From contig NZ_SJPI01000004.1 of NCBI RefSeq assembly GCF_007859865.1, positions 62,001-126,000 on the forward strand: a stretch of 64,000 bases of DNA, in the 5' to 3' direction. Origin of the DNA: Rubripirellula amarantea (lineage in GTDB: Bacteria > Planctomycetota > Planctomycetia > Pirellulales > Pirellulaceae). Position 1 is the stretch's first letter. Every line of letters begins with the position of its first letter. Position numbers and translations under genes: made by a program. Under the pieces are notes generated by a model. The model worked only from the letters and a program-made list of their open reading frames with translations, did not search any database and was not told the origin of the DNA. Shown one piece after another: positions 33,427-63,061 of this stretch.

Positions 33427-34209
33427 ATGCACTGGAAACCGAAAAACTCGATTGCGATTGTGACGGGTGCGAGCAGTGGAATTGGGTCCTCGCTTAGCCA
33501 ATTGCTGTGCCAGGCTGGTTGTCACGTGGTCGCGGTTGCTCGTCGGGCCGAACGATTAGAAGAGCTTGCGGGTACCGTTCCCAATGGATCGCTGTCCACC
33601 GTTGTAGGTGACATCACCCAACCGGAAACGCGATCACGCGTTTTAGACGTGGCGACAACCCAAGGCGACGGCCGACTTGACTTGCTGATCAATAACGCGG
33701 GCATCGGAGCGATCGGACCGTTCTCGGACGCTTCCCCGGAACGACTGCGGCAAATCATGGAAGTGAACTTTTTCGCTCCCGTTGAACTGACCCGCATTTG
33801 CATCCCAGCTTTGCGACTCGGGCGTTCACCGGTGATCTGCAACATCAGCAGCGTACTAGGTCACCGAGCAGTTCCGAACAAAAGCGAATACTGCGCCAGT
33901 AAGTTTGCCATTCACGGGTTCAGCGATTCGCTTCGTGCCGAACTAGCGTGCGACGGAATTCAGGTCACCTTGGTGAGCCCTAGCACGACCCGCAGCGAAT
34001 TTTTTGACTCGCTCATCGACACCGCTTCCGACAGCTCATCTAAAAGCCTGGGAAGCTGGTCTCCCCAAAAAGTGGCCCGCTCAACGATTGCTGCAATCCG
34101 CTGGCGGCGCAGCGAGGTTGTGTTGAGCCTTGGTGGGAAGGCACTTGTCTATGCCGATCGACTTTCGCCACCACTCTTGAATGCGATTCTCGCAAAGTCC
34201 AAAGCATAA
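33427..34209 (+). CDS. Short-chain dehydrogenase/reductase
   Basis: A 260-residue classical SDR. The cofactor loop TGASSGIG is at residues 13-20, NNAG near 85, and the catalytic Ser (NISS), Tyr155 and Lys159 (SEYCASK) are in place. It follows the fatty-acyl or sterol-type SDR pattern but the substrate is not evident. The ATG at 33427 starts the domain cleanly; an upstream in-frame TTG/GTG start is less likely. A FabZ-like gene converges from the other side. The stop codon lies in the first unit of a short tandem duplication. Confidence 0.9.
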   Translation: MHWKPKNSIAIVTGASSGIGSSLSQLLCQAGCHVVAVARRAERLEELAGTVPNGSLSTVVGDITQPETRSRVLDVATTQGDGRLDLLINNAGIGAIGPFSDASPERLRQIMEVNFFAPVELTRICIPALRLGRSPVICNISSVLGHRAVPNKSEYCASKFAIHGFSDSLRAELACDGIQVTLVSPSTTRSEFFDSLIDTASDSSSKSLGSWSPQKVARSTIAAIRWRRSEVVLSLGGKALVYADRLSPPLLNAILAKSKA

Positions 34210-34237
34210 AGCGGATCGAAACATAAGCGGATCGAAC
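34205..34237 (+). repeat. Stop-codon-overlapping tandem duplication (16-17 bp x 2)
   Basis: Two copies of CATAA(A)GCGGATCGAA in tandem. The TAA of the first is the SDR stop codon, and the second copy carries another TAA. Copies differ by one A and by the last base. Confidence 0.85.
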
Positions 34238-34262
34238 GAAGACAGCGTCACGAACCGATGCT

Positions 34263-34301
34263 CGAGAGCGCCGCTGTAGACCGCTGCTCTAGACCGCTGC
34301 T
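34263..34301 (-). repeat. 13-bp tandem repeat just after a stop codon, three copies
   Basis: Read on the minus strand, the FabZ-like gene stops (TAG) and one base later three 13-base units follow: AGCAGCGGTCTAG, AGCAGCGGTCTAC and a diverged AGCGGCGCTCTCG. The first unit ends in TAG, echoing the real stop. It faces the duplication after the convergent SDR gene. Confidence 0.88.
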
Positions 34302-34302
34302 T

Positions 34303-34839
34303 CTAGGAAGAAAGCTTCTCAGCCATCGCGTTTTCGATTGCTTCGACCGGGATCGGGATCCCCTTCAAAGTTCCCTCAACGACAATCAAATCACCCACGA
34401 CTCCTTGGAAGGAAGCGACGATCATTCGATTTCGGCGAGCCTTAACCAGCTTGACCATCAGGATCAATTTATCGCCAGGCATTACGACGCCGCGAAACCG
34501 CACATCGTCGACTCCGCCAAAACCGACAATCTCGGCGCCAAGCAGATCGTTCTTTTGGGTGAAGTAGCTCGAAAGCTGAGCCACACATTCCAACATGACC
34601 ACGCCGGGCATCAACGGCATTCCGGGCATGTGGCCACGGACCCAAAACTCTTGGTCCGTAATTTCTTTAAGGGCGGCGCAGCAGTTCGTCTCGAGATCCT
34701 CGTAAAGGATCGCGGTGAGCTGTTCCATTTCAAATCGCTGCGGATTCAATTTGCGAATCGCCTCGATGTCCGCAATGGGATTATCGAGGTCAAGCAGCGA
34801 GGGGTCGATGATGAATTTACTCTTCACGGCCGTCTTCAA
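34303..34839 (-). CDS. FabZ-like 3-hydroxyacyl-ACP dehydratase
   Basis: A 178-residue hot-dog-fold dehydratase. The catalytic His70 (VRGHMPGMPLMPG) and Glu84 (MLECVAQLS) of the FabZ type are present. It should remove water from beta-hydroxyacyl chains on acyl carrier protein. It is longer than E. coli FabZ (151) because of a ~40-residue N-terminal segment (DPSLLDLDNPIADIEAIRKL). Planctomycetes often carry several FabZ paralogues, so a specialised lipid role is possible. The bL37-like gene lies upstream on the same strand. Confidence 0.85.
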   Translation of the reverse strand: MKTAVKSKFIIDPSLLDLDNPIADIEAIRKLNPQRFEMEQLTAILYEDLETNCCAALKEITDQEFWVRGHMPGMPLMPGVVMLECVAQLSSYFTQKNDLLGAEIVGFGGVDDVRFRGVVMPGDKLILMVKLVKARRNRMIVASFQGVVGDLIVVEGTLKGIPIPVEAIENAMAEKLSS

Positions 34840-34900
34840 AAGTCATTTGTGCGAGACTGTGGAAAGAGGATGACTGCGGCAAGCTGGAAAACCAACTTGT

Positions 34901-34999
34901 TTAGGTCTTCACCTTTCGACGCTTGGCCTTACGCGCCTTGGCGCTTGCCGGACGTCGGCCGTGGTTGGCTTTTTTAAGTTTATGGTGTGGCTTCGCCAT
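34901..34999 (-). CDS. Very small basic protein resembling ribosomal protein bL37
   Basis: A 32-residue ORF starting MAKPHHKLKKANHG and ending KAKRRKVKT. Over half the residues are Lys, Arg or His. The central KANHGRRP resembles the KANHGKRPN end of the mycobacterial large-subunit protein bL37 as I recall it. The composition is that of a small ribosomal protein threaded into rRNA. It lies in a ~325-base gap between larger genes that otherwise looks empty. No strong ribosome-binding site is seen (GTTTGAGATC precedes the ATG). An rRNA-binding role is inferred from composition and the short motif. Confidence 0.72.
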   Translation of the reverse strand: MAKPHHKLKKANHGRRPASAKARKAKRRKVKT

Positions 35000-35164
35000 G
35001 ATCTCAAACTGGATAGAGGAAACGTTGGAAACGGGTTGGGCCGAATGATGTCGACGGTACCCGAATCGAGAAAGATAGCATGAAATGCCCGCGACGTGTA
35101 CCCACGGACGCGTGGGCCAAAGTCAGGAATTTTCGCGAAACATACGTGATTCGGTGAGGCGACA

Positions 35165-36541
35165 CTAGCGGTATCGAGCGGTACCATCAGCCCAATTTGC
35201 CGCCGAATTTAGATCTGAACCACCCCGGGACATCCCCATTTCAGGTTGAGGCTGGGCCGAACTGTATCGTCCGCTATTGCGAACCGAGGGTGGCATCATG
35301 GGTGCGATCGGTTGCTGGTTTCGTTGACGAACGATCGCTTGGCTTTGCCAATCGTCTTGGTTTCCCGAGGTGGCAACCCGGGATTGTTGTCCGTTGGCAC
35401 GTGGATCATTGACCCCTTGGCGGTTGTCAGGTCCTTGGCGGTTTTCTGGCGGTCTCGAAATCGCATTGCTGGCGAGCCCCGCTCCGGCGTTCGGCTGATT
35501 CGCCGCCACAGGAACAGCAGCACCAGTTTGATGAATTTGTTGTTGGCGTTTGTACCAACCTCCGTCAGAAAGGCTTGCCAGAGCGGTCGCTTGGGAATCT
35601 TGAGATGCGATATCGCGAGGCACCGTAGGAGCATTGAGGCGATCGGGCTGCTGCTGGAATGGTGGCGATTGACCACTTGCCAGTGCGATCGCAGATTGCG
35701 GCGAGGATGGCGCTAAGTTGGGATTGGATGAACGGGATCCGGGGTTGGAAGTCCGAGGTTGCAGTTTGGCAAATTTTGCGACCGGGCCACTGCCTTCGGC
35801 CACCCAAGCCAACCAGTACTCCTGCAACTGAGCGAGCGAGTCGTATCCGTAATGCTTCTTAATATTCGCCGTCCAGGATGGGTTCTGCATGTAGTCTTGC
35901 AGGAACGTGATGAACGTCTGCGCGTCTTGCTGTTCGATCAAAAATCGGCACACCGAGTATCCCTGGGCGTACATCGGCAGCACATCGCTAGGGTATTCCG
36001 TTAACAGAAACAAACGGTTCATTGCGATGCCTCGGCGTGAACCTAAAAACTCCCGCAACTTCGCTTCGTGCTTACTTCGTTCGGATTCGTGCTCAACCGT
36101 TGTGCAGATTCCTTCGTCAGCCCAGCGGGGCAATGGACGACCAAAATGAGTTGCGAGCACAGTGTGCGTTACTTCATGCGGCAACACGCTGTCGAGAATC
36201 CGCTCAGGCGTGCCAACGACCTCCATTTGGAAATCTCGCACCGGCGATCGGTTGTACGTCGTGACCCCTTGCGCAGCCAAGTTTGGTCCCGATACCACTC
36301 GAACAGGACAGGGCGTAGGCCATGGCGGCAATCGTTGGCCGAGCCAGTATTCGGCGAGTTGATCGCGGTAGTTTTCGGCCGCTTCGCCCACCGATCGAGC
36401 CAAGGCAGGCGTTGGAGCTTGAATGATGAAGTTCTGAGTGCGAAACCCAGCGGCTTCTGCGGTGGTGCCAACCAGGGCAAGTAGAAAAAGCAAGCCGGCT
36501 GCGGGTATGCCACGAAGGCACACAGAGGTTCGGGCATCCAT
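35165..36541 (-). CDS. Secreted gluzincin-like protein (HExxH) with low-complexity tail
   Basis: A 458-residue exported protein with a signal peptide ending near AEAAG (residue ~31). Zinc-peptidase residues are visible: HEVTH at 122-126 and the third-ligand Glu at 143 in WADEG, as in peptidase MA-like (gluzincin) families. Residues ~255-458 are a Gln/Asn/Pro/Ser-rich, probably disordered tail. Proteolysis is inferred from the motif; the substrate is unknown. The last codons and stop are an imperfect 10-base duplication (TACCGCTCGA / TACCGCTAGT). Confidence 0.8.
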   Translation of the reverse strand: MDARTSVCLRGIPAAGLLFLLALVGTTAEAAGFRTQNFIIQAPTPALARSVGEAAENYRDQLAEYWLGQRLPPWPTPCPVRVVSGPNLAAQGVTTYNRSPVRDFQMEVVGTPERILDSVLPHEVTHTVLATHFGRPLPRWADEGICTTVEHESERSKHEAKLREFLGSRRGIAMNRLFLLTEYPSDVLPMYAQGYSVCRFLIEQQDAQTFITFLQDYMQNPSWTANIKKHYGYDSLAQLQEYWLAWVAEGSGPVAKFAKLQPRTSNPGSRSSNPNLAPSSPQSAIALASGQSPPFQQQPDRLNAPTVPRDIASQDSQATALASLSDGGWYKRQQQIHQTGAAVPVAANQPNAGAGLASNAISRPPENRQGPDNRQGVNDPRANGQQSRVATSGNQDDWQSQAIVRQRNQQPIAPMMPPSVRNSGRYSSAQPQPEMGMSRGGSDLNSAANWADGTARYR

Positions 36542-36751
36542 GCCGCGGAGACTCCATCAGTGGGTAGTGCCTGACAGAAGGAGCATTCGTGCATCCCGCT
36601 CGAAATCAGACCTGCGGGAGTGTAGGGCAATTCAGCAAACTAGGGAAAGGCTAAAAACGTGAGTCAAAACCCACGAATTTTGCCAAAAAGCACGATCGGG
36701 TCTGTGGGCGACGCGTGGGTGACGGACGCCTACGTTGGACTGGATTTCTCT

Positions 36752-37834
36752 TTAAGCTGCGTCGACGGGCAAATCCGGCAATTCGATATCGCCGGCCATT
36801 TGACGCAGCTTTTCCATCGCCCGGCGCTCCAATTGACGAACTCGTTCTTTCGAAATTCCTAGTCGATCAGCCAGCGATTGAAGCGTGTGGACTTTTCGAT
36901 GCGATCCCAGGGAAAATCGAGCACGGATGATTAGCTTTTCTCTTCGATCCAAGTCGTTAAGCATCACAGCCATGCGTGCCCTTAGCTCATGCCAGCGTTT
37001 TTCGCTGATCGCGCTGGAACGCTTCTCGTCGCTGATCTCGATCTCCATATCCTGCAGACCACCAAGCACCTTTTGTCGGTCTTCTTGATTTTCCACAACA
37101 GTGCGATACGAATTTCGGCGAACGACCTGGGTTGCGTAAGTGCTGAAACGGAAACCTCGCCCGAAGTCGAACTTTTCGACTGCTCGCATCAATCCGATGA
37201 TGCCATCGCTAAGAAGATCGTCGAAGGTATTGTTGGGGTTCACAAACTTCTTGACGATCGAGAACACTAACCGCAAATTCGCTTCGACAATGCGATCACG
37301 GTGCCATTCCGCCAGTGCCACCAGACGTTCGATCAGTTCCAAGCGAACTCGCGAAGGACGTTCAGGGTTGAGCAAACTGCGGTGCACGGACGCTTGGTGC
37401 ATCAGAAAGTTCATTCGCTGGAACAACATCACTTCTTGCTCAGGCTTCAGCAACGGAGCCTCGCAGAGACGACTGAGGTGAATGGGTAGATCAATCCCGC
37501 TTTTACGCAACGTCGCCATGCCCAATTCGGTCTTTCGCGGCGATAGACCAAGCGTTCCAGCAAACACCTCGGCTCCCATCCCAGGATCCGAGAACCGCGT
37601 ATTGGTAATGAATGCCAATTCTCGTTTGAGCCAAAGTTTGGTGGCAGCCCGCAGGGTTTCGTTATCGGCATCCCGGTAGTCTCGACACTGCTGATCAACG
37701 TCGTGGTTAGCGACTTCTAACTCGGAGCAGCGAACCCAGGCCGGGATCCGAGCGGGCGTCTTCGAAGGCGTGGTTTGAGCACTGGCACGCGACTTTTTCG
37801 CAGGCACTCGCTTGAGTGAGGTGGCGGCTGGCAT
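36752..37834 (-). CDS. RNA polymerase sigma-70 family factor
   Basis: A 360-residue sigma factor. Region 2 (DLLSDGIIGLMRAVEKFDFGRGFRFSTYA in pieces, ~205-235) and region 4 with helix-turn-helix (LQSLADRLGISKERVRQLERRAMEKL, near 320-345) are clear. It is longer than ECF factors and retains a region 1.2-like N-terminal part but lacks a region 1.1. The first ~35 residues are basic and disordered. It best fits a group 2/3 (non-essential RpoD-like) factor. It diverges from the MerR/B12-type gene across a 362-base region. Confidence 0.9.
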   Translation of the reverse strand: MPAATSLKRVPAKKSRASAQTTPSKTPARIPAWVRCSELEVANHDVDQQCRDYRDADNETLRAATKLWLKRELAFITNTRFSDPGMGAEVFAGTLGLSPRKTELGMATLRKSGIDLPIHLSRLCEAPLLKPEQEVMLFQRMNFLMHQASVHRSLLNPERPSRVRLELIERLVALAEWHRDRIVEANLRLVFSIVKKFVNPNNTFDDLLSDGIIGLMRAVEKFDFGRGFRFSTYATQVVRRNSYRTVVENQEDRQKVLGGLQDMEIEISDEKRSSAISEKRWHELRARMAVMLNDLDRREKLIIRARFSLGSHRKVHTLQSLADRLGISKERVRQLERRAMEKLRQMAGDIELPDLPVDAA

Positions 37835-38196
37835 TTGAGGAGCTCCGAGGCTTGTCTGGTGAGCGAGACTTTCAACAACTTCAATGAACGTTCACCTGAG
37901 CAACAACAAACAACATGCCAAGATGGACGGTGTGAACGTTTTTTTCATCCAAAACGTCCACTAGGTATATCGGTGATTCGCAACCTCGGCAAGCGAATTA
38001 TCCAACAAAGTCTTTATTTTTTCGCCGATATCCCTCTAAATTGATTCGCAGTGCGGCTTTTCGACAAAACTGATTAGGTCGCGATTTGTCCCTCGCTGCC
38101 CATCATTGACTGGTCGCCTACAATCCAACGCAATCTGAAATCGTCCATGCAATCGTCCAAAACGTCCGTCCGATCGACCCCGAAGGTCATTCCGCC
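37835..38196. promoter_or_regulatory. Divergent promoter region with a repeated 12-mer
   Basis: A 362-base gap between the sigma factor (minus) and the MerR/B12-type regulator (plus). The 12-mer TCCAAAACGTCC occurs twice in the same orientation, at 37948-37959 and 38156-38167; the second copy ends 29 bases before the regulator start. Two identical 12-mers 208 bases apart are unlikely by chance and could be operators, perhaps for the regulator itself. AT-rich stretches with T-runs occur near 37938-38040. Promoter elements are not assigned. Confidence 0.5.
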
Positions 38197-39078
38197 ATGG
38201 CAGCCCGCCAACCCCAGTATTCACCCAAGCAAGTCGCTGAAGCCTTAGGCGCCAGCGAATCGTCGCTGAAACGTTGGTGTGATCGGGGCGCCATCGCCAC
38301 CATCCGCACGGTGGGCGGACACCGGCGAATCACGTTGGACGGGCTAAGAGATTTTTTGGAAACGTCAGGTCGTGAATTGTTAGCCCCTCAAGTTCTAGGA
38401 CTCCCCAAGCTGGGAGTCGGACGGTCGAGTGAAATTTCCGGCAGCGACGACCCGGACCAGCGGGCATTCCGCAAGGCCATCGTTAACGGCGACGAGGAGG
38501 CTTGCCGGAAGGTCCTGCAGCATCGTTTGGATCAGGGGATGCTAAGGAGCGAAGCGGCAGAGTTCTTTATCGCCGACGCGATGCATGAAGTGGGGGCCGC
38601 GTGGCAATGCAATTCGGTAGACGTCTATCAAGAGAGACGAGGCTGCGAAATCTGCATTCGGTTGATTAGTGAATTGCGTGCCGGTTTGCCTCCCCTTCGC
38701 GACGATGCACCGATCGCGATTGGCGGTACACCCACTGGTGATATCTACCAGCTACCGACGGCGCTAGTGGAGTTGGCACTTCGAGAAGTGGGCTGGAATG
38801 CCGTCAATCTCGGCTGCAATTTGCCTTGGGATAGCTTTGTCCAAGCCTCCCATGACTATCAACCTGAAATGATGTGGTTGAGCGTGTCGCATATTGACGA
38901 CGCACCATCATTTGTAATCGAGCAGAATCGGCTGGCTGATTCCTTGGGGGAAAACGTAACGATGTTGATTGGCGGCCAAGCTCTTACCGACCAAATTCGA
39001 CCTCGTTTACGCTACACCGCGTTTTGCGACAGCATTGGTCATCTCACCGAACTTGCCGCCATGATGAGGCTAAAATAG
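38197..39078 (+). CDS. MerR-like regulator with degenerate B12-binding domain
   Basis: A 293-residue protein. Residues ~8-50 are an excisionase/MerR-type DNA-binding domain (SPKQVAEALGASESSLKRW, then GGHRRI). A helical cap lies at ~90-165, and a Rossmann domain of the cobalamin-binding type at ~170-290 (SVSHID, LIGGQAL). The layout is that of CarH/LitR light-sensing repressors. However, the cobalt-ligand DxHxxG appears as DIYQLP, and the cap EH is ER (YQERRGCE). Family knowledge says these His residues bind B12, so B12 binding in the usual way is doubtful. The gene ends in a 15-base tandem repeat that includes the stop codon. Confidence 0.82.
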   Translation: MAARQPQYSPKQVAEALGASESSLKRWCDRGAIATIRTVGGHRRITLDGLRDFLETSGRELLAPQVLGLPKLGVGRSSEISGSDDPDQRAFRKAIVNGDEEACRKVLQHRLDQGMLRSEAAEFFIADAMHEVGAAWQCNSVDVYQERRGCEICIRLISELRAGLPPLRDDAPIAIGGTPTGDIYQLPTALVELALREVGWNAVNLGCNLPWDSFVQASHDYQPEMMWLSVSHIDDAPSFVIEQNRLADSLGENVTMLIGGQALTDQIRPRLRYTAFCDSIGHLTELAAMMRLK

Positions 39079-39138
39079 ACGAGGCTAAAATAGATGAGGC
39101 TGAAATGGATAAGGCTGAAATGGATAAGGCTCAATGAG
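39064..39138 (+). repeat. 15-bp tandem repeat that includes the stop codon, five copies
   Basis: Five consecutive 15-base units of the type ATGAGGCTAAAATAG. The first is the end of the B12-type regulator gene (Met-Arg-Leu-Lys-stop). The second also ends in TAG; units three and four end in TGG and unit five in GAG. Period is exact, so the reading frame is kept through all units. Confidence 0.95.
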
Positions 39139-39207
39139 CCGTCCACTAGCACTGCATTCCGCTGACGCGCGCGTGCAAAACACCGGTGGATCTTGCTTGT
39201 AAACTGA

Positions 39208-39282
39208 AAAACCGCATTGGCAGCTTATCGATGGTGGAATGCCCCCAAACCACCGACGAAAAGATGCTACCAATGCGGTTTT
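39208..39282. terminator. Large bidirectional hairpin with nested stem
   Basis: A 17-base arm (39208-39224) pairs with 39266-39282 with one G-U-type mismatch. The arms begin with AAAA and end with TTTT, so either strand gives a stem followed by a U-run. Inside the loop a second stem GGTGG (39233-39237) / CCACC (39250-39254) forms. It lies between the convergent regulator and HDOD genes, so a shared terminator is the natural reading. The nested stem makes it larger than a usual intrinsic terminator. Confidence 0.8.
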
Positions 39283-39318
39283 CGCTATTTCAAACCGGCC
39301 GGAAATTTACCGTTGGAC

Positions 39319-49550: not shown

Positions 49551-51074
49551 ATGAGTTTGCTGCCTCCGCGTGAAGATCAATTGCAATCGACACAGGGAAG
49601 TACAGGTCACGACGAACAAATTAAGCAGCGACGCCCCAGTACAATTGGCAAGGATTTATTTCCTATTCCGCTTGCACCCATCGAACAGTTCTTGGTGCTT
49701 GACGATCGGCCCGATTGCCCGATGACCAGCTTCATTGAACTCCATTTTGCATCGGAGTTACAACGAGACCTGTTGTCTCAGGCACTCACGCAAACCGTGC
49801 ATCAACATCCGTTCTTGGCGTCGAGACTAGTCACACTCGATGGCGAGATGCATTGGAACTACGATCCCGATTTCGAACCTCAGTTGCGAGACCCGACCCT
49901 CGTTCCAATTTTGGCAACGCGAGACGCTGACCATGAACCAAGCCCACGACCAATAGACTTGCGCCGCGAACCTGGATGCCGATATTGGTACGGCGTCAAC
50001 GAGGTCACGGGCAAGAGTTGCTTGACGATTCAATTGCATCATGCAGCCTGTGATGGTGTTGGTTTGCGACGAGTAATCATCGACACCTTGACTGCCTACG
50101 CCAAACTCTCAACACCGCCGGTTGAAGGCGAGGAACCTAAGAAAAAGAAAAAACGCGATCAACTCGACGCGAAGAGGCTACTCGCCCGAGCCGACTTTTC
50201 GGAAATCGATCAGAAGCCAGTGACGCATCCGATAAGCGGATGGCAGCGCATGAAGAACAACTTCTATTTCTACTTCTTGAAACCGCAACCCTTAGTCGGA
50301 ACCCCAGTTGCGAGTTCATCATCTGAAAACAACGCGCCGCTTCGCCATCATATCTTTGACGTGGAAACTTCGACGAAGCTAACGGAATGTTGTCGTAAAA
50401 ACGAGATTGCATTCAACGACTTGGCTTTAACTATTTTGTTTCGGGCCTGTCGCCACTGGAACGAACTCCACGGACTAACGAAAGCAAAGACTCGCATCCG
50501 TGTGCTGATGCCTATTGATTTGCGCGGGCGTTCGGACCTGCAGACTCCTGCGACCAACCGACTTAGCTTCTCGTTTCTCGGCCGCACTCATTCCCAATGC
50601 GACGATTGGGTTACTTTGCTCTCGAGCGTTCAAAAAGAAACCAACGCGATCAAGTCAAGCCGCGTCTACATGGATTTCCTTAACGGTTTGGCCACCGCGG
50701 TCAAACATCCTAAGCGATTTGCTCGAGCAATCGGTATCAATCGCAACATGACCACTAGCGTGTTGACGTATACGGGCGATATCGCTCGAGGCATGAAGAA
50801 CCACTTTCCCGAAGAGGATGGTCGGCGGAAGATCGGCGACTCGTATCTCGAAAACATTCTGATCGCACCGCCTGCTCGCGAGAACACAAACATCACCATG
50901 GGACTGTGTATCAATTGGGGCCAGATCTGTATTTCAGCCAACTGGAACCGAACCGCAATCACTCGCGAAGAGTGCGGCGAGTTTTTAAAGATCTACGCCA
51001 GCGCTATGATTGAATGGCTCAATACCATGTCTCACGAATCGCTTGGCAAATCCGACATGACCGCGGATGAGTAG
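49551..51074 (+). CDS. Condensation-type acyltransferase
   Basis: A 507-residue CoA- or carrier-dependent acyltransferase of the condensation/WS-DGAT/alcohol-acyltransferase fold. The catalytic motif HHAACDG is at residues 163-169, and the second conserved region (LMPIDLRGRSD) is near 322. No carrier-protein, adenylation or ketosynthase gene is next to it, so it is not part of an obvious NRPS or PKS cluster. A role in ester, lipid or glycolipid formation is inferred only from the fold. Post-stop DNA carries a 14-base tandem repeat. Confidence 0.78.
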   Translation: MSLLPPREDQLQSTQGSTGHDEQIKQRRPSTIGKDLFPIPLAPIEQFLVLDDRPDCPMTSFIELHFASELQRDLLSQALTQTVHQHPFLASRLVTLDGEMHWNYDPDFEPQLRDPTLVPILATRDADHEPSPRPIDLRREPGCRYWYGVNEVTGKSCLTIQLHHAACDGVGLRRVIIDTLTAYAKLSTPPVEGEEPKKKKKRDQLDAKRLLARADFSEIDQKPVTHPISGWQRMKNNFYFYFLKPQPLVGTPVASSSSENNAPLRHHIFDVETSTKLTECCRKNEIAFNDLALTILFRACRHWNELHGLTKAKTRIRVLMPIDLRGRSDLQTPATNRLSFSFLGRTHSQCDDWVTLLSSVQKETNAIKSSRVYMDFLNGLATAVKHPKRFARAIGINRNMTTSVLTYTGDIARGMKNHFPEEDGRRKIGDSYLENILIAPPARENTNITMGLCINWGQICISANWNRTAITREECGEFLKIYASAMIEWLNTMSHESLGKSDMTADE

Positions 51075-51090
51075 GTGGTAAGTTGCTGCT

Positions 51091-51132
51091 CATTAGGTGT
51101 TGGTGATTAGACGCTGGTCATTAGACGCTGGT
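51091..51132 (+). repeat. 14-bp tandem repeat after the acyltransferase stop, three copies
   Basis: Units start at 51091, 51105 and 51119 with the shape (C/G)ATTAGACGCTGGT; the first unit differs at four positions. Each contains TAG. A smaller 8-base repeat (TGGAGAGA twice) follows at 51166-51181. The array begins 16 bases after the stop codon. Confidence 0.88.
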
Positions 51133-51339
51133 CGCAGAGGCGATAACCGATCAGACGATAAGCGCTGGAGAGATGGAGAGATGGTCGTTAGGCATTGGGC
51201 GTCGCGCGAAGCTTTGACCATTGGCAATTCGATCCGTGGCGGCCAGAACGATGTTGCTCCTATCGATGGCCTAGCGCGGACCTGTTAGCCTCTGCTGCAG
51301 TTCCTTGCTTCCAATGCCACCGCCTGAAAGGCTTGATTC

Positions 51340-52040: not shown

Positions 52041-52096
52041 TGTTTTATTGAAATCCGGGGCGTTTTAGCGAAATCCGGGGTGTTTTAGTGAAATAA
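52041..52096 (+). repeat. 20-bp tandem repeat after the metallopeptidase stop, ~2.8 copies
   Basis: Units begin at 52041, 52061 and 52081 (TGTTTTATTGAAATCCGGGG, CGTTTTAGCGAAATCCGGGG, then a partial copy). Two or three mismatches separate the units. It lies in the 255-base gap before korA. Confidence 0.92.
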
Positions 52097-54297: not shown

Positions 54298-55305
54298 ATG
54301 TCGCTTCCTGTACTCAAAGCTGCCGACTTCGCTTCCGACCAAGATGTTCGATGGTGCCCTGGATGTGGAGACTACTCCATCTTGGCTCAGATGAAGAAGG
54401 TCTTGCCGGAACTCGGCGTGCCTCGCGAAAAGATCGTGTTCGTTAGCGGCATCGGTTGCAGCAGCCGCTTTCCGTACTACATGAACACGTATGGAATGCA
54501 TAGCATCCATGGACGTGCCCCCGGGTTTGCCACGGGCCTGAAATCCACACGTCCCGATTTGATGGTTTGGGTCATTACCGGTGACGGAGACGCGTTGTCG
54601 ATCGGTGGCAACCACTTCATCCATGTGCTGCGACGAAACCTGGACGTTAACATCGTCCTGTTCAATAACCGCATCTATGGCTTGACCAAAGGTCAGTACA
54701 GCCCCACCAGCACCGAAGGGCAGATCACCAAGAGCACGCCCATGGGTTCGATCGACCACCCGCTAAGCCCGTTGTCAGTAGCCCTTGCTGCCGAAGCAAC
54801 GTTCGTTGCACGAAGCGTTGATGCCCACGTCAAGCACCTCGGCGAAATGCTCACTCGTGCTGCTGCTCACAAGGGAACGTCGTTGCTTGAGGTCTACCAA
54901 AACTGCAACGTGTTCAACGATGGCGCGATGGCCTACGCGCAAGAAAAGAAACAACGTGACGACAACGTGATCGAACTCGAACACGGCAAGCCGCTTGTCT
55001 TCGCCAAAGGCACCAAGGGCGTTCGCTTGGTTGGCAGTGGCCTCGAAGTTGTCAACACAGCCGACGTTGCCGTTGATGATTTGTTGATTCACGATGAAAA
55101 GGCTCACAACCCGTCCATCCAGATGATGCTTGCTCGAATGTCATACCCCGAGATGCCCGAGCCGATCGGCGTGCTTCGATGCGTCGAAGGCGTCCCGACG
55201 TACGACGATCAAATCAACGCTCAGGTTGACCTCGCGAGAGAAAAGCGTGGCGAAGGCGATCTTGATAAACTATTTACCTCGGGTGACACCTGGGTCGTCA
55301 GCTAA
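54298..55305 (+). CDS. korB: 2-oxoacid:ferredoxin oxidoreductase, beta subunit
   Basis: A 335-residue TPP-binding subunit. The cluster-ligating cysteines start at WCPGCG (20, 23), and the TPP/Mg motif is GDGDALSIGGNH with the following NNRIYGLTKGQ near 120. GCSSRFPYYMNTYG is the KorB-type signature. There is no attached ferredoxin domain, so an outside ferredoxin must accept electrons. The C-terminus (TWVVS-stop) is the first unit of a four-copy 15-base tandem repeat. Confidence 0.94.
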   Translation: MSLPVLKAADFASDQDVRWCPGCGDYSILAQMKKVLPELGVPREKIVFVSGIGCSSRFPYYMNTYGMHSIHGRAPGFATGLKSTRPDLMVWVITGDGDALSIGGNHFIHVLRRNLDVNIVLFNNRIYGLTKGQYSPTSTEGQITKSTPMGSIDHPLSPLSVALAAEATFVARSVDAHVKHLGEMLTRAAAHKGTSLLEVYQNCNVFNDGAMAYAQEKKQRDDNVIELEHGKPLVFAKGTKGVRLVGSGLEVVNTADVAVDDLLIHDEKAHNPSIQMMLARMSYPEMPEPIGVLRCVEGVPTYDDQINAQVDLAREKRGEGDLDKLFTSGDTWVVS

Positions 55306-55350
55306 TGGGTCGTCAGCTAATGGGTCGTCAGCTAAAGGGTCGCTAGATAA
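55291..55350 (+). repeat. 15-bp tandem repeat that includes the korB stop codon, four copies
   Basis: Three identical units TGGGTCGTCAGCTAA start at 55291, 55306 and 55321, and a diverged fourth starts at 55336. Each of the four ends in TAA, in frame with korB. The first unit codes the true C-terminus Trp-Val-Val-Ser-stop. Confidence 0.97.
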
Positions 55351-55516
55351 GACACTCATTGCGAAGACTACCAAACGCAGATTGAAATGGTGAACCTGCG
55401 ATAGCGACTCAAGGCAAACCAAATGCGGCAACTCAAACGCGGCAACTCAACACCTGCGTCTGATGCACGATCAATAACACCGAACTTCACGATTCACATC
55501 TTCAAAGGAATTGACC

Positions 55517-56486: not shown

Positions 56487-56572
56487 GGCCGGGCGAGCGG
56501 AAATCCGCTGCGTTTGGCCGATGAGCCTCGCTCGAGAAGCGTGAAGCACGCGCGAAAGCAACCTGCCCGGCC
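56487..56572. terminator. Branched inverted-repeat element between convergent genes
   Basis: An outer 8-base stem GGCCGGGC (56487-56494) / GCCCGGCC (56565-56572) encloses two hairpins: AGCGG-AAAT-CCGCT (56496-56509) and GCGTG-AAG-CACGC (56539-56551). It fills the 116-base gap between cysK and the convergent TPR gene. No T-run follows on either side, so it is probably a structured transcript end rather than a classical intrinsic terminator. Confidence 0.6.
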
Positions 56573-56574
56573 GG

Positions 56575-57945
56575 TTATCGTTTCATCAACTCGCCAATCA
56601 GCGTGTCCGTATCAGGGTCTATTTCTAAACCGAGCAACTTGTTCTTCAAGCCGTTTCGTACCGCGTCAGCCTTAGCGTATTCCTGCTGGTCGTCATAAAG
56701 GGAAGCGAGTGTTTCAAGAAGCGGTTCATAGTTCGCCATCACCGTTCGCGCCGCTTCCAATTCCGTTATCGCTTCTTCTACGCGACCGAGCTTGGCCAGC
56801 ACTTGCCCCCGAGTTTCGCGATACATCAAATTCTGCGGTGCTAGTTCAATCAGACGGTCGGCATGGGCGAGCGCTCGCTCAAGCTCCGGAGGCTCAGCAT
56901 TCGCTAGGTAAGAAGCCAGATTGTTTAGAATTTCTGGTCGCTCGAGTTCAACTTCGTTTTCGAGTACGTCTTCGAGAAGCTCGATGGCGTCACCGACCTT
57001 TCCTTGTGAATGCATGTGAGCCGCTCGAATTAGCTCAACGGTGCCACCGGACGAATGAGTGATGATCGCATCTTTTACCCACCGCTTCAACTCGCTAGCC
57101 TGTACCCAGTCGCCAAGACTCAGTTCGTAAACGTTACTCCAGATCAGTAGCGAACCAGGCTCTTGATCAAACATCGTTCGTAACGAAGTGGCAACCCGCG
57201 GGTCCTCTGGATTGACACGATGCCAATGGCGAATTTGAGCGAGCTTGATGTTCGTTCTTGTCGTGGAAATTGTAGGACCGCCCTCCAATTCCAGTGCATC
57301 CAGCGCCGCCAACGCTTCATCGTAACGTTCCAGCAGGGTATAGGCCTGGGCTAGCCCGATGGTCGCTGATTCGTTCGATTTCGAATCACTGAGTTGTTGC
57401 CGGTAATGCTGCACGGCCTGATTGCCGACCTCCACGGCCTCATCGGATTGACCGTCTAGCAACAGCGTTCGCGCGAACGTCAGTAGCAAGCCCGGCTGGT
57501 CGTGAACCGCAGGTCGTAGTCGCTCGATCGCCGCTGCCAAATCCTTGCGTGCCAGGTGCATCAGCCCTAGAACAGCTTGAGCGGACTCATCACCGGCATC
57601 GGCGACGATCGTCAGGTTCTCAATTAAGATTCGTTGCTGCTGGACCGTTCCCGATTGGTAGCCCTCGTCCAACATCCGATCGACAAGATAGCGCTGCGCA
57701 GGCAAGTACGGAGGCCGACCCATCGCTAGACGTCGGATGGACGCCAAGGAGTTTTGAACATCTCTTTCTGGCGTTGAGTCATTTTCAATCAGAGCGAGTG
57801 CTGACTCAAACAACTTTTCTCGACGATCAACCTGTGGTTCAACCACGTCGGCCGTGGTGGAAACGTCGTCAGTGACACGTTCACCACAGCCAGTCGCGAG
57901 AACAAGCAATAGTGGAAAAAGAACAATCCTGGCGTGAAATTTCAT
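56575..57945 (-). CDS. TPR-repeat lipoprotein
   Basis: A 456-residue protein. A lipobox (LATGC, Cys20) marks it as a lipoprotein. The rest is alpha-helical with tetratricopeptide-like repeats (YDEALAALDALE, PELERALAHADRLIELAPQN, RVEEAITELEAA). Such proteins act as periplasmic scaffolds; the partner is unknown. It converges on cysK. Confidence 0.85.
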   Translation of the reverse strand: MKFHARIVLFPLLLVLATGCGERVTDDVSTTADVVEPQVDRREKLFESALALIENDSTPERDVQNSLASIRRLAMGRPPYLPAQRYLVDRMLDEGYQSGTVQQQRILIENLTIVADAGDESAQAVLGLMHLARKDLAAAIERLRPAVHDQPGLLLTFARTLLLDGQSDEAVEVGNQAVQHYRQQLSDSKSNESATIGLAQAYTLLERYDEALAALDALELEGGPTISTTRTNIKLAQIRHWHRVNPEDPRVATSLRTMFDQEPGSLLIWSNVYELSLGDWVQASELKRWVKDAIITHSSGGTVELIRAAHMHSQGKVGDAIELLEDVLENEVELERPEILNNLASYLANAEPPELERALAHADRLIELAPQNLMYRETRGQVLAKLGRVEEAITELEAARTVMANYEPLLETLASLYDDQQEYAKADAVRNGLKNKLLGLEIDPDTDTLIGELMKR

Positions 57946-58102
57946 CCCGTCATTCTACAAGGCCAGTCGTTGGTGATTCTGGTGTTTTGGCACCAGAAAA
58001 TTTCTTGGCGAGCAATCGAGATAAAATCCGTTGCGCAGAGGCCAAAGAGGTCTTGTCGTCGACAGCTTCGGTTCTATAATCTGCGACTTACCTGACCAAT
58101 CA

Positions 58103-58175
58103 GCGGCTGTAGCTCAGTTGGTAGAGCATCACGTTGCCAACGTGATTGTCGTCGGTTCGAATCCGATCAGCCGCT
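58103..58175 (+). tRNA. tRNA-Gly (anticodon GCC)
   Basis: A full cloverleaf folds. The 7-bp acceptor stem is GCGGCTG/CAGCCGC. The D-arm is GCTCAGTTGGTAGAGC, the anticodon arm TCACG-TTGCCAA-CGTGA has GCC at 58136-58138, and the T-arm is GTCGG-TTCGAAT-CCGAT. CCA is not encoded. It stands between the TPR and FabH-like genes. Confidence 0.97.
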
Positions 58176-58221
58176 CTTTCTAGTCTTTTGGCCACCACGG
58201 CACCTTTGCTCTGGATCCCTC

Positions 58222-59262
58222 GTGCCTGAACCCGTCGTGCCCGAACTCGTGGCGCCAACCAACCGCCGCGGAAAGCACGCCAATCTTGGCCCTATCGCCG
58301 TTCACCTTCCCGAACGGATCGAGTCCAACGACGAATTGCAAAAGCAGTTCCCTCGTTGGGATCTGAGTCTGATCGAAGAGAAGACCGGAATTTCTCAACG
58401 TCACATTGCTAAGCCAGACGAGACGGCAAGTGACTTGGCCGTGAAGGCGGCTGAAAAGTTGTTCGCCGAATCAGACATCGATCGCGACAGCATCGACTTC
58501 TTGCTGTTGTGCACGCAAACACCTGATTACCCACTGCCGACAACAAGCTGCCTGATTCAAGATCGGTTGGGACTTTCCACTCGATGCGGTGCTTTGGATT
58601 TCAATCTGGGTTGCAGCGGTTTTGTTTACGGACTTGCTGTGGCCGATGGCTTAATCCAAAGCGGGGTGGCGAAGAACGTGCTGTTGCTCACGGCGGAAAC
58701 GTACAGCAAGTACATTGACGATGACGATCGCAGCTTACGAACCATCTTTGGCGACGGGGCGGCCGCGACACTCATAACGGCCGGTGACGAACCAACTTTG
58801 TGGGGCTTCCAATTTGGCAGCGATGGCAGCGGCGGCGACATGCTTGTCGTCGGCGATGGAGGAGCCAGACCGGCGACCGACGCAATCCAACCTCGCCATC
58901 GAAAGCGATGGAAGAGCCGTTTGTACATGGATGGCCCCAGCTTGATCAACTTCACCGTGGAAGCAATTCCTCGCCTGGTCGACGAAATTCTGGAAACCAA
59001 TGGACTAACCGACGCCGAGATCGACAAGTATCTGATGCACCAGGCCACCTGGAAAATGCTGGATCAGCTTCGAACGCGGATGGGCGTGGCAGAAGACCGG
59101 CTGCCAATTGACATGGCCGATATCGGCAATACCGTCTCTTGCACGCTGCCAATCTTGATCCAAAGATTGCGAAGTCGCGGCGAATTGGCGGACGGAACGA
59201 CGCAAATGCTGGTGGGATTTGGCGTTGGGTTGTCTTGGGCGGGATGCCTCTGGAAGGTTTGA
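58222..59262 (+). CDS. 3-oxoacyl-ACP synthase III (FabH-like)
   Basis: A 346-residue thiolase-fold ketosynthase. The Cys-His-Asn triad is present: Cys131 (NLGCSGF), His273 (MHQATW) and Asn303 (IGNTVS). It should start a fatty-acid or related acyl chain from acyl-CoA and malonyl-ACP. The length exceeds FabH because of an N-terminal extension that contains a 15-base direct repeat coding VPEPV/VPELV. The start is uncertain: GTG at 58222 or a later GTG. It follows the tRNA by 46 bases. Several FabH paralogues are usual in planctomycetes, so a non-housekeeping role is possible. Confidence 0.87.
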   Translation: MPEPVVPELVAPTNRRGKHANLGPIAVHLPERIESNDELQKQFPRWDLSLIEEKTGISQRHIAKPDETASDLAVKAAEKLFAESDIDRDSIDFLLLCTQTPDYPLPTTSCLIQDRLGLSTRCGALDFNLGCSGFVYGLAVADGLIQSGVAKNVLLLTAETYSKYIDDDDRSLRTIFGDGAAATLITAGDEPTLWGFQFGSDGSGGDMLVVGDGGARPATDAIQPRHRKRWKSRLYMDGPSLINFTVEAIPRLVDEILETNGLTDAEIDKYLMHQATWKMLDQLRTRMGVAEDRLPIDMADIGNTVSCTLPILIQRLRSRGELADGTTQMLVGFGVGLSWAGCLWKV

Positions 59263-59384
59263 CGCAATGGGGCGGCTAGGCCTCGATCAAATTTTTAGTA
59301 GCGTCACAAGGCTCTCAATCACCTATACTCAAGGAATCGTGATTGAACTTCCGTCCCCCCTCTTTTTGTCGGAGCCACCTAGCC

Positions 59385-60053
59385 ATGAACAATAATCTCA
59401 CCGGTCGATTGCTCATCGCTTCTCCACATCTGAGTGACGGAAATTTTTTACGTAGCGTAATTTTTATGATCCGGCACGACGTCGAAGGCGCCTTCGGGTT
59501 GACCATCAACCGTCCAACCTCGCGTCGCTTCCGAGACCTAGTCGATTCAAGTTCCGTTGACGGAAAGCCTCGCGAAGACGATTTCATCTTCCGCGGGGGC
59601 CCGGTCGATGGCCCGCTTCTTGCCCTACACGATCTTGCTGGTGTGGGCGAACCATGTGGTCCGTATGACCCGTCGCATGAACCGACTTCCCAAAACAACG
59701 CGATGCATGGATCTAAGTTCACGGTGCTGCCTTCGCCCTCGGATGCTTGGGGTGCGATGTCGATTGAACTAGGCAATCCACCCGCTTGGATCACCGGCGA
59801 CGATGACCACTTGCGAATTTTGCTTCGTCGCAGCGACGCGCGAGTCCGTTATGTGGCTCACTACGCGGGGTGGGGACCGGGCCAACTTGACGAAGAACTT
59901 AGAGTCGGCGGCTGGCTTGCCGGCGATGCCGATCCCGATTTGATCTTCGGAAACGCGGATGATGTTTGGGAGAAAGCCGTTAAGCAATGCGGGCAGCAAG
60001 TGCTGAGTGAAATTGCACCAGGCGTTGCCTTTGGTGACCCTAGTTTGAACTAA
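59385..60053 (+). CDS. YqgE/AlgH-family protein
   Basis: A 222-residue protein of the UPF0301 (YqgE/AlgH) family. LTGRLLIASPHLSDGNFLRSVIFM at the N-terminus, FGLTINRPTS near 42 and the GGPVDGP segment near 78 are diagnostic. The family is widely conserved; function is not clearly established. The start at 59385 is the ATG that begins the family sequence; an earlier GTG would add 14 residues. Confidence 0.93.
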   Translation: MNNNLTGRLLIASPHLSDGNFLRSVIFMIRHDVEGAFGLTINRPTSRRFRDLVDSSSVDGKPREDDFIFRGGPVDGPLLALHDLAGVGEPCGPYDPSHEPTSQNNAMHGSKFTVLPSPSDAWGAMSIELGNPPAWITGDDDHLRILLRRSDARVRYVAHYAGWGPGQLDEELRVGGWLAGDADPDLIFGNADDVWEKAVKQCGQQVLSEIAPGVAFGDPSLN

Positions 60054-60163
60054 CACTTTTCGAATAATTCGCTAGACTTGACGTTTGATTTTTGATCATC
60101 GTCGTTGGTTGTTCCGCATCAAAGGCTGGAATGACACTCTCTTTTTTCTAGCAAGGTGTATCG

Positions 60164-60937
60164 ATGCGAAGGTTCGTGATTGGTGACATTCACGGATGCG
60201 ATAAAGCGCTGCGAACAATCATCGATACGATCGCTCCCAATCCCTCCGACGAAATCATCTTTCTTGGCGACTACATCGATCGTGGCCCCAATTCCAAAGG
60301 GGTGATTGAACAGCTACTGAAGCTCACGAGCGAATGCCAAGTGATCACGTTGCGTGGCAATCATGAAATCATGCTTCAAGGCGTGGCCCTGCATGGTCTC
60401 GACGAACAATTGTGGTTAGCCAACGGAGGTCGGGCGACGCTTACCAGCTACGGTGGAAAAATTGCCAAGATCCCTGATTCGCATATGGATTTTTTTCATG
60501 GCTTGCGAGCGTATCATGAAACTGGCGAATCCATCTTCGTGCATGCTGGGTATGATCACTCGCTCGAAATGCATCGACAACCCGAGATGAACACCTATTG
60601 GATGCACCTAGCATTCCCGTTTCCGCCGCCTCACGTCAGCGGAAAACGAGTGTATGTGGGTCACTCGCCACAAGGTTCTGGCGACATCCTTGATTTGGGT
60701 CACCTAGTTTGCCTGGACACTTATTGCTTCGGTGGGGGATATCTAACCGCGTTCAACCTCGACACTCTTGACTGCATTCAAGCGGACCGGCACGGGCACT
60801 TGCGAAGAGCGCCGTTTGCAATCGTCGGGGATGGCATCAAGCGGCTGGCGTCTCGCCTTGGAGCAACGTATCGGAAATTCAGCAAAGACAAGACGGAACC
60901 AGACGACGATCCGACGCCTGATGCTAAGGAAAGCTAG
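60164..60937 (+). CDS. PPP-family metallophosphoesterase
   Basis: A 257-residue phosphatase. The metal-binding motifs GDIHG at 7-11, GDYIDRG at 35-41 and RGNHE near 65-69 are intact. The fold is that of bacterial Ser/Thr protein phosphatases of the PPP family or of Ap4A hydrolase-related enzymes. A C-terminal helical tail is Lys/Asp-rich. The substrate is not evident. Confidence 0.9.
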   Translation: MRRFVIGDIHGCDKALRTIIDTIAPNPSDEIIFLGDYIDRGPNSKGVIEQLLKLTSECQVITLRGNHEIMLQGVALHGLDEQLWLANGGRATLTSYGGKIAKIPDSHMDFFHGLRAYHETGESIFVHAGYDHSLEMHRQPEMNTYWMHLAFPFPPPHVSGKRVYVGHSPQGSGDILDLGHLVCLDTYCFGGGYLTAFNLDTLDCIQADRHGHLRRAPFAIVGDGIKRLASRLGATYRKFSKDKTEPDDDPTPDAKES

Positions 60938-60943
60938 TCAAAG

Positions 60944-62026
60944 TTACTCGGCGAGCAATATCTCGATTGTGTCTCTCATTTGCTGTTCACCCGGTGTGCC
61001 GTTCCAGTTCAACTCACCTTGCCACCATCGCCGCAAAAAGCCTTCCTTGTCGATCAAATAAACCGTCGGCCACATCGTATTGTGCCAGGCTTTCCAGTTC
61101 GAACTCTCCGCATCCAGCATGGTAGGAAATTCAAACCCATCGTTCTTCACCGCTGCGGAAACCTTTTCTAGTCGTCGTTCCGCCGGAGTCTCCGGCGTCT
61201 GAATCCCGATCACGACCAAACCGTCATCTTCGTAATCTTTGTGCCATGCTTTGTAGTGCGGAAAATTGCGTTGACAGTTGATGCATTGAAACGCGTAAAA
61301 ATGAACAGCCACGACTTTGCCCCTTAATTCGGACAAGGTCAACGGTCCCCCCTGTATCCAGGTCACACCATCGTCTTCAAGTTCTGGTGCTAGAGGGTAC
61401 ATTCGCTTGATCTTGCCAAAGTCAAAAGGTTTACCCGTTAGCTTACTTAGCATCGCTCGTTGGTTCTCATTGAGCGTCGCCACCATGTGAGTTCGCTCTT
61501 CTTTCTGCAACGCCTCGACACGCTTGCCTGCGGCACGGTTGTCAATCTTGCCATCGAACACCTCTTTCTGAACAGCAGCCGCTTCCGTTTCCGTTTTCGC
61601 AGCCGCTTCGTTGAAACGACTCAGTTGGTCGTCGCTGATGTCCAACTCGTCGACGACATCCTGGCGAAGCACCATCCGAGTTCCCAAGGCCTGACGTTCG
61701 AGTTGCCGTAATCGGTTTGACTGTTGTGGAGTCAACGTATCAGCCAACCGCGATCTCAATGCGTCAGTAAGTTCGTTAATGACTCGCGTTTGCTCAGCGG
61801 GCTGCAAGTTCCGTGCACGAAACCACGGACCATCAATTTCGGGCAACTGGCCAAGCACCGTTCCAACCTGATCCGACGACAACGACAATTCTTCGTGTAT
61901 CGCGGTATCGCGAATCATTTGAAGCAGCACAGGCTGCAATTGGACCTTGTCGACAGCCAAGGCGTCCGAACAGCTAACAACGCTAAAGAGAAGGCAAGTA
62001 AGACTGCCCAGTATGCTTCGAGGCAT
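60944..62026 (-). CDS. Secreted thioredoxin-like protein (TlpA/AhpC type)
   Basis: A 360-residue exported protein. A signal peptide ends near ALAVD (residue ~24). A helical region (~28-200) with repeated polar heptads follows. The last 160 residues form a TlpA-like thioredoxin domain with CINC (Cys248, Cys251) in VHFYAFQCINCQRNF and the cis-Pro motif MWPTVYLID. Disulfide exchange in the periplasm is inferred. It converges on the phosphatase gene, 6 bases between stops. Confidence 0.87.
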   Translation of the reverse strand: MPRSILGSLTCLLFSVVSCSDALAVDKVQLQPVLLQMIRDTAIHEELSLSSDQVGTVLGQLPEIDGPWFRARNLQPAEQTRVINELTDALRSRLADTLTPQQSNRLRQLERQALGTRMVLRQDVVDELDISDDQLSRFNEAAAKTETEAAAVQKEVFDGKIDNRAAGKRVEALQKEERTHMVATLNENQRAMLSKLTGKPFDFGKIKRMYPLAPELEDDGVTWIQGGPLTLSELRGKVVAVHFYAFQCINCQRNFPHYKAWHKDYEDDGLVVIGIQTPETPAERRLEKVSAAVKNDGFEFPTMLDAESSNWKAWHNTMWPTVYLIDKEGFLRRWWQGELNWNGTPGEQQMRDTIEILLAE

Positions 62027-62277
62027 TCAATTCCACCCTTCATCGAAAGTTTTATCGGAGATCACGCTCGTGGACTGGGATGACCGATTGGGATGGCTAT
62101 CCGCCAAGATCGCAAGTCACCCAAGATTTCGAGTTCCCAACCACGGCGTATCAGGAACCAAGCTCACTTAATTTAGTGTATCCGATCTCATTGGCCTCGC
62201 GATTTCACTACAATCGAAGCACTCAATTAACCTGATCTATCACCAAACATTCATCATCAAGAACCGAAACGAAGAAC

Positions 62278-62997
62278 ATGAAAATTGCTATTCTTACCAG
62301 CATCTTATTTCTCGGCATCGTGATTGGCATGGCTCCACTTCCTGCATTGGCACAAGATGAATCTGAGCGTGTGCTCCGTCACGCCGTATTCTTCAAGTTC
62401 AAAGAAACTTCCAGCGAAAAAGATATTCAATCAGTCGTCGATGCGTTCGTTGCTCTACCGACCAAGATTGATTCGATTGTTAATTTCCAATGGGGAACAA
62501 ACAACAGTCCCGAAGGTCTCGATGATGGATTCACTCACGCGTTCCTGCTAACGTTCAACGACGAAAGCGGACGAGAAGAATACCTCCCTCATCCAGCGCA
62601 CAAAGAATTCGGCAACGTCCTTCGCCCTCACATGGCCGACGTTTTTGTCGTCGATTACTGGGGAAGCAAGTCAACCGAGGACCTTCAAGGCGAGATCAAG
62701 CACGCCGTGTTCTTCAAGTTCAAAGACGACGCATCGAGCGAAGCCGTGAAGAACGTCGAAGATGCCTTTGCGGCGTTGCCGTCAAAGATCGATACGATCA
62801 AGGCATTTGAGTGGGGAACGAACAATAGCCCGGAAACTCATGACGATGGATTCACCCATTGCTTCATGGTTACGTTTGCCGACGACGACGGTCGCAAAGT
62901 CTACCTGCCTCACCCCGATCACCAAGCGTTCGTGAAGGTACTCGGCCCTGTACTCGACAAGGTCCGCGTCATTGACTTTCAAGTAACGCCTAAGTAA
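62278..62997 (+). CDS. Secreted protein with two Dabb domains
   Basis: A 239-residue exported protein (signal peptide MKIAILTSILFLGIVIG to about ALAQD). Two ~100-residue stress-responsive Dabb-type alpha/beta-barrel domains follow head to tail, each with HAVFFKFK, FxWGTNNSPE, DDGFTH and YLPHPxHxxF. They are alike at DNA level too (for example GGATTCAC in both), so the gene arose by an internal duplication. Function is unknown; related proteins are dimeric. A 19-base tandem repeat starts 7 bases after the stop. Confidence 0.9.
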   Translation: MKIAILTSILFLGIVIGMAPLPALAQDESERVLRHAVFFKFKETSSEKDIQSVVDAFVALPTKIDSIVNFQWGTNNSPEGLDDGFTHAFLLTFNDESGREEYLPHPAHKEFGNVLRPHMADVFVVDYWGSKSTEDLQGEIKHAVFFKFKDDASSEAVKNVEDAFAALPSKIDTIKAFEWGTNNSPETHDDGFTHCFMVTFADDDGRKVYLPHPDHQAFVKVLGPVLDKVRVIDFQVTPK

Positions 62998-63004
62998 TTC
63001 GTCG

Positions 63005-63061
63005 TCGATCCATGAATGCACTCTCGATCCATGAATGCACTCTCGGGCCTTGAATGCACTC
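63005..63061 (+). repeat. 19-bp tandem repeat after the Dabb gene stop, three copies
   Basis: Units start at 63005, 63024 and 63043: two identical TCGATCCATGAATGCACTC copies and a third with four changes. It begins 7 bases after the Dabb stop codon and ends 38 bases before the convergent glycine-zipper gene stop. Confidence 0.96.

Follow-up and report, generated by a model that had tools for sequence, protein, structure and literature searches.

Short tandem arrays of seemingly unrelated units behind stop codons in Rubripirellula amarantea

Tandem arrays at the gene ends of the window

A 64-kb stretch of the Rubripirellula amarantea genome (hereafter the window: positions 62001-126000 of contig C4, in a genome of 6.95 Mb and nine contigs) carries short tandem arrays that overlap the stop codons of its genes or begin a few bases behind them. 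We called tandem arrays with Tandem Repeats Finder (TRF), listing those of the window from score 30 up and counting arrays at a score of 50 or more. The initial annotation of the window had named seven such gene ends. Six of them are confirmed, with TRF scores of 62-99, whereas the seventh, at 34205, is only a two-copy imperfect repeat. Among four weaker cases that it had listed, the one at 23537 was recovered (TRF score 45) and those at 35165, 41236 and 42365 yielded no TRF row. The features are given below, with two comparison cases at the end.

34205..34236, plus strand: two-copy imperfect repeat with copies of 17 and 15 bp, seen by eye (no TRF row at score 30 and up); takes in the stop codon of an SDR-type gene that ends at 34209 (Pfam: short-chain dehydrogenase)
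34254..34306, minus strand: 13-bp unit, 4.0 copies (TRF and reading), in a convergent gap; overlaps the stop of the minus-strand gene 34303-34827
39063..39131, plus strand: 15-bp unit, 4.6 copies (TRF and reading), which diverge stepwise; takes in the stop codon (39076-39078) of a gene for a MerR/B12-binding type regulator
51085..51133, plus strand: 14-bp unit, 3.5 copies (TRF and reading); begins 10 bases past the stop at 51074
52042..52094, plus strand: 20-bp unit, 2.7 copies (TRF and reading); 12 bases past the stop of a Zn_peptidase_2 gene (52029)
55291..55342, plus strand: 15-bp unit, 3.5 copies (TRF and reading); the unit consists of the stop and the four codons ahead of it in a gene that we take to be KorB-like, a name based on its neighbour gene
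55420..55450, plus strand: 14-bp unit, 2.2 copies (TRF); about 115 bp past the KorB-like stop
63005..63064, plus strand: 19-bp unit, 3.2 copies (TRF and reading); 7 bases past the stop of a Dabb-domain gene (62997)
23529..23561, plus strand: 16-bp unit, 2.1 copies, score 45 (TRF); overlaps the stop at 23537
12291..12359, no strand: 22-bp unit, 3.1 copies (TRF); in a divergent gap, away from stops
12865..12938, plus strand: 12-bp unit, 6.2 copies (TRF); inside a gene, with 100% matches and the highest TRF score in the window

At score 50 the window holds 12 arrays, namely six on or near stops, the one at 55420, the divergent-gap array at 12291, and another four inside genes (12661, 12865, 45492 and 53447). 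Several of the window's arrays contain the gene's own stop codon, and their head-to-tail copies differ from one another by point changes that can be read directly. The units look different at each site, none is visibly shared, and no common motif emerged by eye from the unit lists, in keeping with the original view that one kind of event recurs on unrelated sequences.

The clearest case of local copying lies at 55291, where the gene encodes a TPP-enzyme C-terminal domain protein. This protein has full-length matches of 85-90% identity in 19/21 genomes of the same genus and is also 85% identical in L062, a metagenome-assembled genome (MAG) of the Planctomycetaceae; the next matches include Pirellulaceae and Pirellulales records. 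The gene end is present once in L062, with no array there, and is repeated in the window, indicating that the unit at 55291 is a local copy of the gene's own end. Two further repeats were seen near such genes: a weak 15-bp two-copy repeat (L062:5892-5921, score 46) lies in frame within the last codons of a KorA-like gene, and in the congener L149 a run of N follows the KorB-like stop, with the stretch preceding the run recurring behind it.

Enrichment on the 3′ side of genes

Most counts for R. amarantea cover 1.6 Mb (C1:1-1600000), and those by gap type or of placement within gaps cover the first 1.2 Mb. For comparison we used a one-contig congener (G003) and a genome from another family of the same order (G030). 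Genes came from simple in-house callers rather than from annotation, leaving starts and small genes uncertain. An array was scored as near-stop when its edge fell within -17..+16 of a stop, and the expectation was taken by shifting the arrays circularly relative to the genes (300 times for the window, 150 times otherwise); the number of shifts sets a floor for each p value. By this measure, 6/12 arrays of the window are near stops (mean of the shifts 0.31, maximum 3), as are 20/148 in the 1.6 Mb (3.28 expected, maximum 9) and 6/48 in the congener (1.0 expected), and no shift reached the observed count in any of the three. The enrichment at gene 3′ ends that was first proposed from the window alone therefore holds in the wider genome. 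In G030, 0/21 arrays are near stops, with 0.56 expected by circular shifts.

Only a weak near-stop excess is left once random placement is confined to intergenic DNA (21 against 16.4 expected within 16 bp of stops; in the window, 6 against 2.5). The window is, moreover, an unusually stop-centred sample: its 6 near-stop ends compare with a mean of 0.9 in 25 other 64-kb blocks, only one of which matches it and none of which exceeds it. Array-bearing gene ends are regionally clustered along C1:1-1600000, from 0 to 10 per 64-kb block: 55 of them fall in the first 13 blocks and 23 in the following 12. Compared per 100 kb over the 1.6 Mb, GC skew and array numbers displayed no simple trend with replication position.

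The enriched zone is broader than the phrase "on or just after the stop", used in the initial annotation, would suggest. Convergent gaps carry 1.38 arrays/kb, codirectional gaps 0.50 and 0.37, and divergent gaps 0.24. Resolved by the proximal edge of the array, the codirectional rate in R. amarantea is 0.79-1.18/kb from -12 to +80 and 0.28-0.39 beyond, and the convergent rate is 1.54-2.74/kb up to +80, then 0.46 and 1.02. The 3′ side is enriched over some 80-100 bp, and the stop codon itself forms no peak. We therefore disfavour the stop codon as the target, given the flat rate from about -12 to +80 in R. amarantea; the congener has too few arrays for the same assessment, with 0-2 codirectional and 0-3 convergent ones per bin, and its convergent gaps keep a rate of 2.41 at 81-120.

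Genus specificity was considered and dropped, as 79 single loci of other groups contain 28 noncoding arrays (10 in 19 from planctomycetes and 18 in 60 from other phyla). The counts within 100 bp of stops and in the remaining noncoding DNA, made with a simpler gene caller, are 11 in 20.6 kb vs 7 in 26.4 kb in other phyla, 5 in 7.3 kb vs 5 in 9.5 kb in the planctomycete loci, 45 in 51.0 kb vs 24 in 79.8 kb in R. amarantea, 14 in 15.3 kb vs 11 in 24.3 kb in the congener (p=0.10), and 3 in 17.0 kb vs 1 in 24.3 kb in G030. A 50-kb stretch of E. coli contained no noncoding array and one coding array. The phenomenon is thus wider than the genus, with varying density. Arrays that overlap or touch the stops of open reading frames, each with a different unit, were also seen in Streptomyces (L133, L136) and in an Acidobacteria MAG (L078).

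Unit length, reading frame and turnover

Inside genes, the array unit is divisible by 3 in 59/65 cases in R. amarantea and in 17/18 in the congener; the corresponding fractions for noncoding arrays are 41/89 and 16/38. In both classes alike most units measure 15-18 bp, and noncoding units fall at 13-20 bp in 65/89 arrays, with a mode at 15 bp (17 arrays). This frame filter implies that duplications of the same size also arise inside genes, where they are sieved by selection. Perfect duplications of 8-60 bp lead to a similar length: in noncoding DNA, 15 bp is the commonest (12/46 in R. amarantea, 7/33 in the congener; 0/7 in G030), and in the coding DNA of R. amarantea 10/55 are of 15 bp. The base content of the units, summed over 86 arrays (A 355, C 449, G 455, T 382), displays no A bias.

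The edges of the duplications carry a further signature. For noncoding duplications with a period of 12 or more and fewer than three copies, the median stretch shared past the two copies is 5 bp in R. amarantea (n=27) and 4 bp in the congener (n=16), where by our own estimate chance would account for less than 1 base. Such sharing of a few bases points to slippage between short direct repeats.

We then compared orthologous gene ends for four array genes of the window (KorB-like, MerR/B12, Zn peptidase and Dabb) and two control genes without arrays, counting arrays of score 50 or more that start within -30..150 bp of the end. The fetched loci used were 20/30, 18/22, 4/25 and 20/20 for the array genes and 14/30 and 18/30 for the controls; loci from other genera, paralogs and matches that were split or partial were left out, as were the copies of R. 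amarantea itself. Only 4/58 congener ends of the array genes bear an array (2/19, 1/17, 0/3 and 1/19), compared with 2/30 ends of the control genes (0/13 and 2/17). Lowering the score to 40 yields 5/58 and 2/30, and the background in the 1.6 Mb is an array in that zone at 78/1056 gene ends, a count in which an array in a convergent gap may enter twice. At the MerR/B12-type stop itself, 0/17 congener orthologs have an array; L249 has one with another unit 112 bp downstream. Both the presence and the unit of the arrays differ between species, and the units at orthologous ends look unrelated by eye. Judged from the ends compared, array presence is not conserved at orthologous gene ends.

Causes of the position and known systems

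On balance, we lean toward reading the arrays as recent, lineage-specific slippage duplications whose position is set mainly by selection rather than by rate. Short direct repeats already present would let slippage or template switching duplicate local DNA, typically of 13-20 bp (mode 15), and further slippage would then lengthen the array. Such duplications would arise genome-wide; inside genes, nearly all survivors would be multiples of 3. Behind stops, by contrast, any length would survive, since protein and stop stay intact in the first copy even where the stop is duplicated, and the 3′ side of genes would become the main reservoir of arrays. This reading builds on local copying of a gene end (in one clear case), the frame filter, the 3′-side enrichment and the turnover between species, all of which are observed here. 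We infer that slippage is the source and that the position is owed mainly to selection and less to rate.

Several observations weigh against this reading. With respect to mechanism, 7/18 coding duplications of the class examined above share no bases past two copies, and the shared 5 bp in noncoding DNA may come in part from decayed longer arrays. With respect to position, R. amarantea has 42 arrays in the 39.3 kb of its 3′ zone (1.07/kb), defined as DNA that lies no more than 150 bp from a stop but over 150 bp from any start, 18 in 69.1 kb far from stops and starts (0.26/kb), and 6 in 27.8 kb within 50 bp before starts (0.22/kb). Repeats are hence commoner near stops than in other intergenic DNA, the point on which the initial annotation had staked its claim, but the distant DNA is poorer than selection would lead one to expect. 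The contrast persists after masking, that is, after removal of open reading frames of 80 amino acids or more from the noncoding DNA (37 in 27.8 kb vs 5 in 18.4 kb), and it recurs among exact duplications, which were located independently of TRF (19 in the 57.7 kb up to 100 bp from stops vs 15 in the remaining 151.4 kb of intergenic DNA, or 0.33 vs 0.10/kb, p=0.0007). Arrays near starts are as frequent as expected by placement within gaps (7 vs 6.2), and because the DNA 1-50 bp before starts is hardly poorer than far DNA, promoter avoidance is not a visible cause of the 3′ excess; the four-fold excess over distant intergenic and start-adjacent DNA is left unexplained by it. Promoter-free convergent gaps also drop beyond 100 bp, on few counts, and the array-bearing ends are overdispersed among blocks (variance/mean 1.85-2.11 over 25 blocks). 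Far intergenic DNA should be as free of constraint as the DNA behind stops and yet is array-poor, which selection does not readily explain. The pattern is open both to hidden constraint or missed genes in the far DNA and to a higher duplication rate at transcript ends.

A mutational hotspot of the latter kind, in which termination, R-loops or collisions where transcription units converge would raise slippage over about 100 bp past stops, is a plausible rival to be taken seriously, to which we give the lesser weight. It draws on the same contrast, a 3′ zone that in R. amarantea has four to five times the rate of distant intergenic DNA and exceeds start-adjacent DNA too, and on the profile along codirectional gaps whose start lies more than 120 bp off: array midpoints (R. 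amarantea, window and congener pooled, masked) number 8 in 12.5 kb at 1-50 bp, peak with 14 in 7.9 kb at 51-100 bp, and fall to 5 in 7.0 kb at 101-200 bp and 2 in 11.2 kb beyond 200. Convergent ends, in addition, carry about twice the arrays of codirectional ends at equal distance in R. amarantea. A hotspot at transcript ends is less easily reconciled with the genes themselves, whose last 100 bp (7 exact duplications in 100 kb) are a little richer than the body (49 in 1172 kb) and no more than similar to the initial 100 bp (6 in 100 kb). It also loses ground in the congener, where the contrast between 3′ zone and far DNA (16 in 15.8 kb vs 8 in 32.4 kb unmasked) is nearly gone on masking (8 in 9.0 kb vs 4 in 5.5 kb). 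Exact duplications in the congener do agree with a 3′ enrichment (10 in 17.0 kb within 100 bp of stops vs 9 in 57.9 kb of other intergenic DNA, p=0.004). In G030 the 3′ zone has 2 arrays in 12.5 kb vs 3 in 24.4 kb of far DNA. Far intergenic DNA may, furthermore, hide constraint or missed genes. A stronger form, namely a duplication process that prefers steps near 15 bp, is strong in this clade and acts mainly where transcription ends, such that 3′ ends are a built-in hotspot, is possible but in our view doubtful. Mutational bias is the best fit among the functions and causes first proposed, and we still favour selection as the main cause of the position. If the post-stop excess is in fact mutational, duplication would be tied to transcript ends in bacteria, and the footprint of the hotspot could be read from genome sequence alone.

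An improbable alternative is a selected gene-end element (a terminator, protection of the mRNA 3′ end or back-up stops) in which the sequence is free and repetition itself matters. The main hint of such a role is a small sense-strand excess of stop triplets in units that do not touch the gene's stop (51 sense vs 32 antisense of 1157 positions, p=0.048). Folding below z=-2 is found for 19% of 57 arrays vs 14% of 171 other 3′ segments (p=0.08, mononucleotide shuffles), and the mean folding z over 86 arrays is -1.07 sense and -0.83 antisense (dinucleotide shuffles). Folding is at most slightly raised over other 3′ DNA, and a terminator or other transcript-end structure, the latter as first suggested, is at most weakly indicated. 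Among units within 150 bp of a stop (R. amarantea, window and congener pooled), 37/86 are multiples of 3, and repeated stops therefore stay in one frame in those arrays. This fraction, together with the failure of orthologous ends to keep arrays (4/58 vs 2/30), disfavours back-up stops in all frames and makes the readthrough protection proposed at the outset unlikely; 978/1056 gene ends, besides, have no array at all. A conserved function of the arrays is not supported. Chance, low complexity or an assembly artefact we consider very improbable, for although the window was spotted by eye and is extreme, and the arrays are known from assembled sequence and not from reads, five Markov-simulated sets of intergenic DNA held 0 or 1 arrays each vs 89 real ones (1.6 Mb, score 50), the copies differ by point changes that would be unexpected of assembly stutter, and the near-stop excess recurs in the one-contig congener. 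Taken as a whole, the original observation is partly confirmed and its interpretation partly supported.

A genome with frequent arrays that prefer a size, obey the reading frame and gather behind stops offers a way to part mutation from selection, and its duplications feed new noncoding DNA and amino-acid repeats. In the literature searched, which left most subscription journals outside, no title or beginning of an abstract described an enrichment of bacterial tandem arrays behind stops. Related repeats are known from several settings. According to excerpts of a study of close direct repeats (PMC4060949), these are over-represented in prokaryote intergenic DNA, and mismatch repair weakens with growing loop length; as that text suggests, duplications of 13-20 bp would give loops too long for efficient mismatch repair. 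The close repeats in those excerpts are not resolved by distance to stops, unlike the arrays described here. In eukaryotes, short tandem repeats that delineate gene bodies (PMC11686069) share, by the title of that report, the placement at gene boundaries; our case concerns a bacterium.

Bacterial minisatellites or variable-number tandem repeats (VNTRs) and prokaryote satellites (PMC6749651, in which Rhodopirellula baltica is tabulated) are likewise short, head-to-tail and partly intergenic. Our arrays share several marks of VNTRs, with copies beyond chance, a local single-copy origin (one case) and an in-gene filter for multiples of 3. The portion of the satellite study consulted gives no position relative to stops, with 0 occurrences of "stop codon" and "convergent" in its text. 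The TAACTGA repeats of Beggiatoaceae (PMC4679880, in part) resemble our arrays as short intergenic direct repeats, some of which overlap the stop of the upstream gene. They consist of one fixed heptamer, however, and lie mostly upstream of starts, whereas the unit of our arrays differs from one to the next and the excess lies past stops. The tandem repeats of Borg archaeal elements, as described in sections of PMC9879509, are similar in their recent independent origin and in the partial repeats that flank them, with examples of 18-21 nt units, and also in a frame filter: in-gene units are all divisible by three, intergenic units in only 14-38%. Our arrays differ from the Borg repeats in residing in a bacterial chromosome, in being shorter and mostly imperfect, in having no A bias, and in their measured enrichment behind stops.

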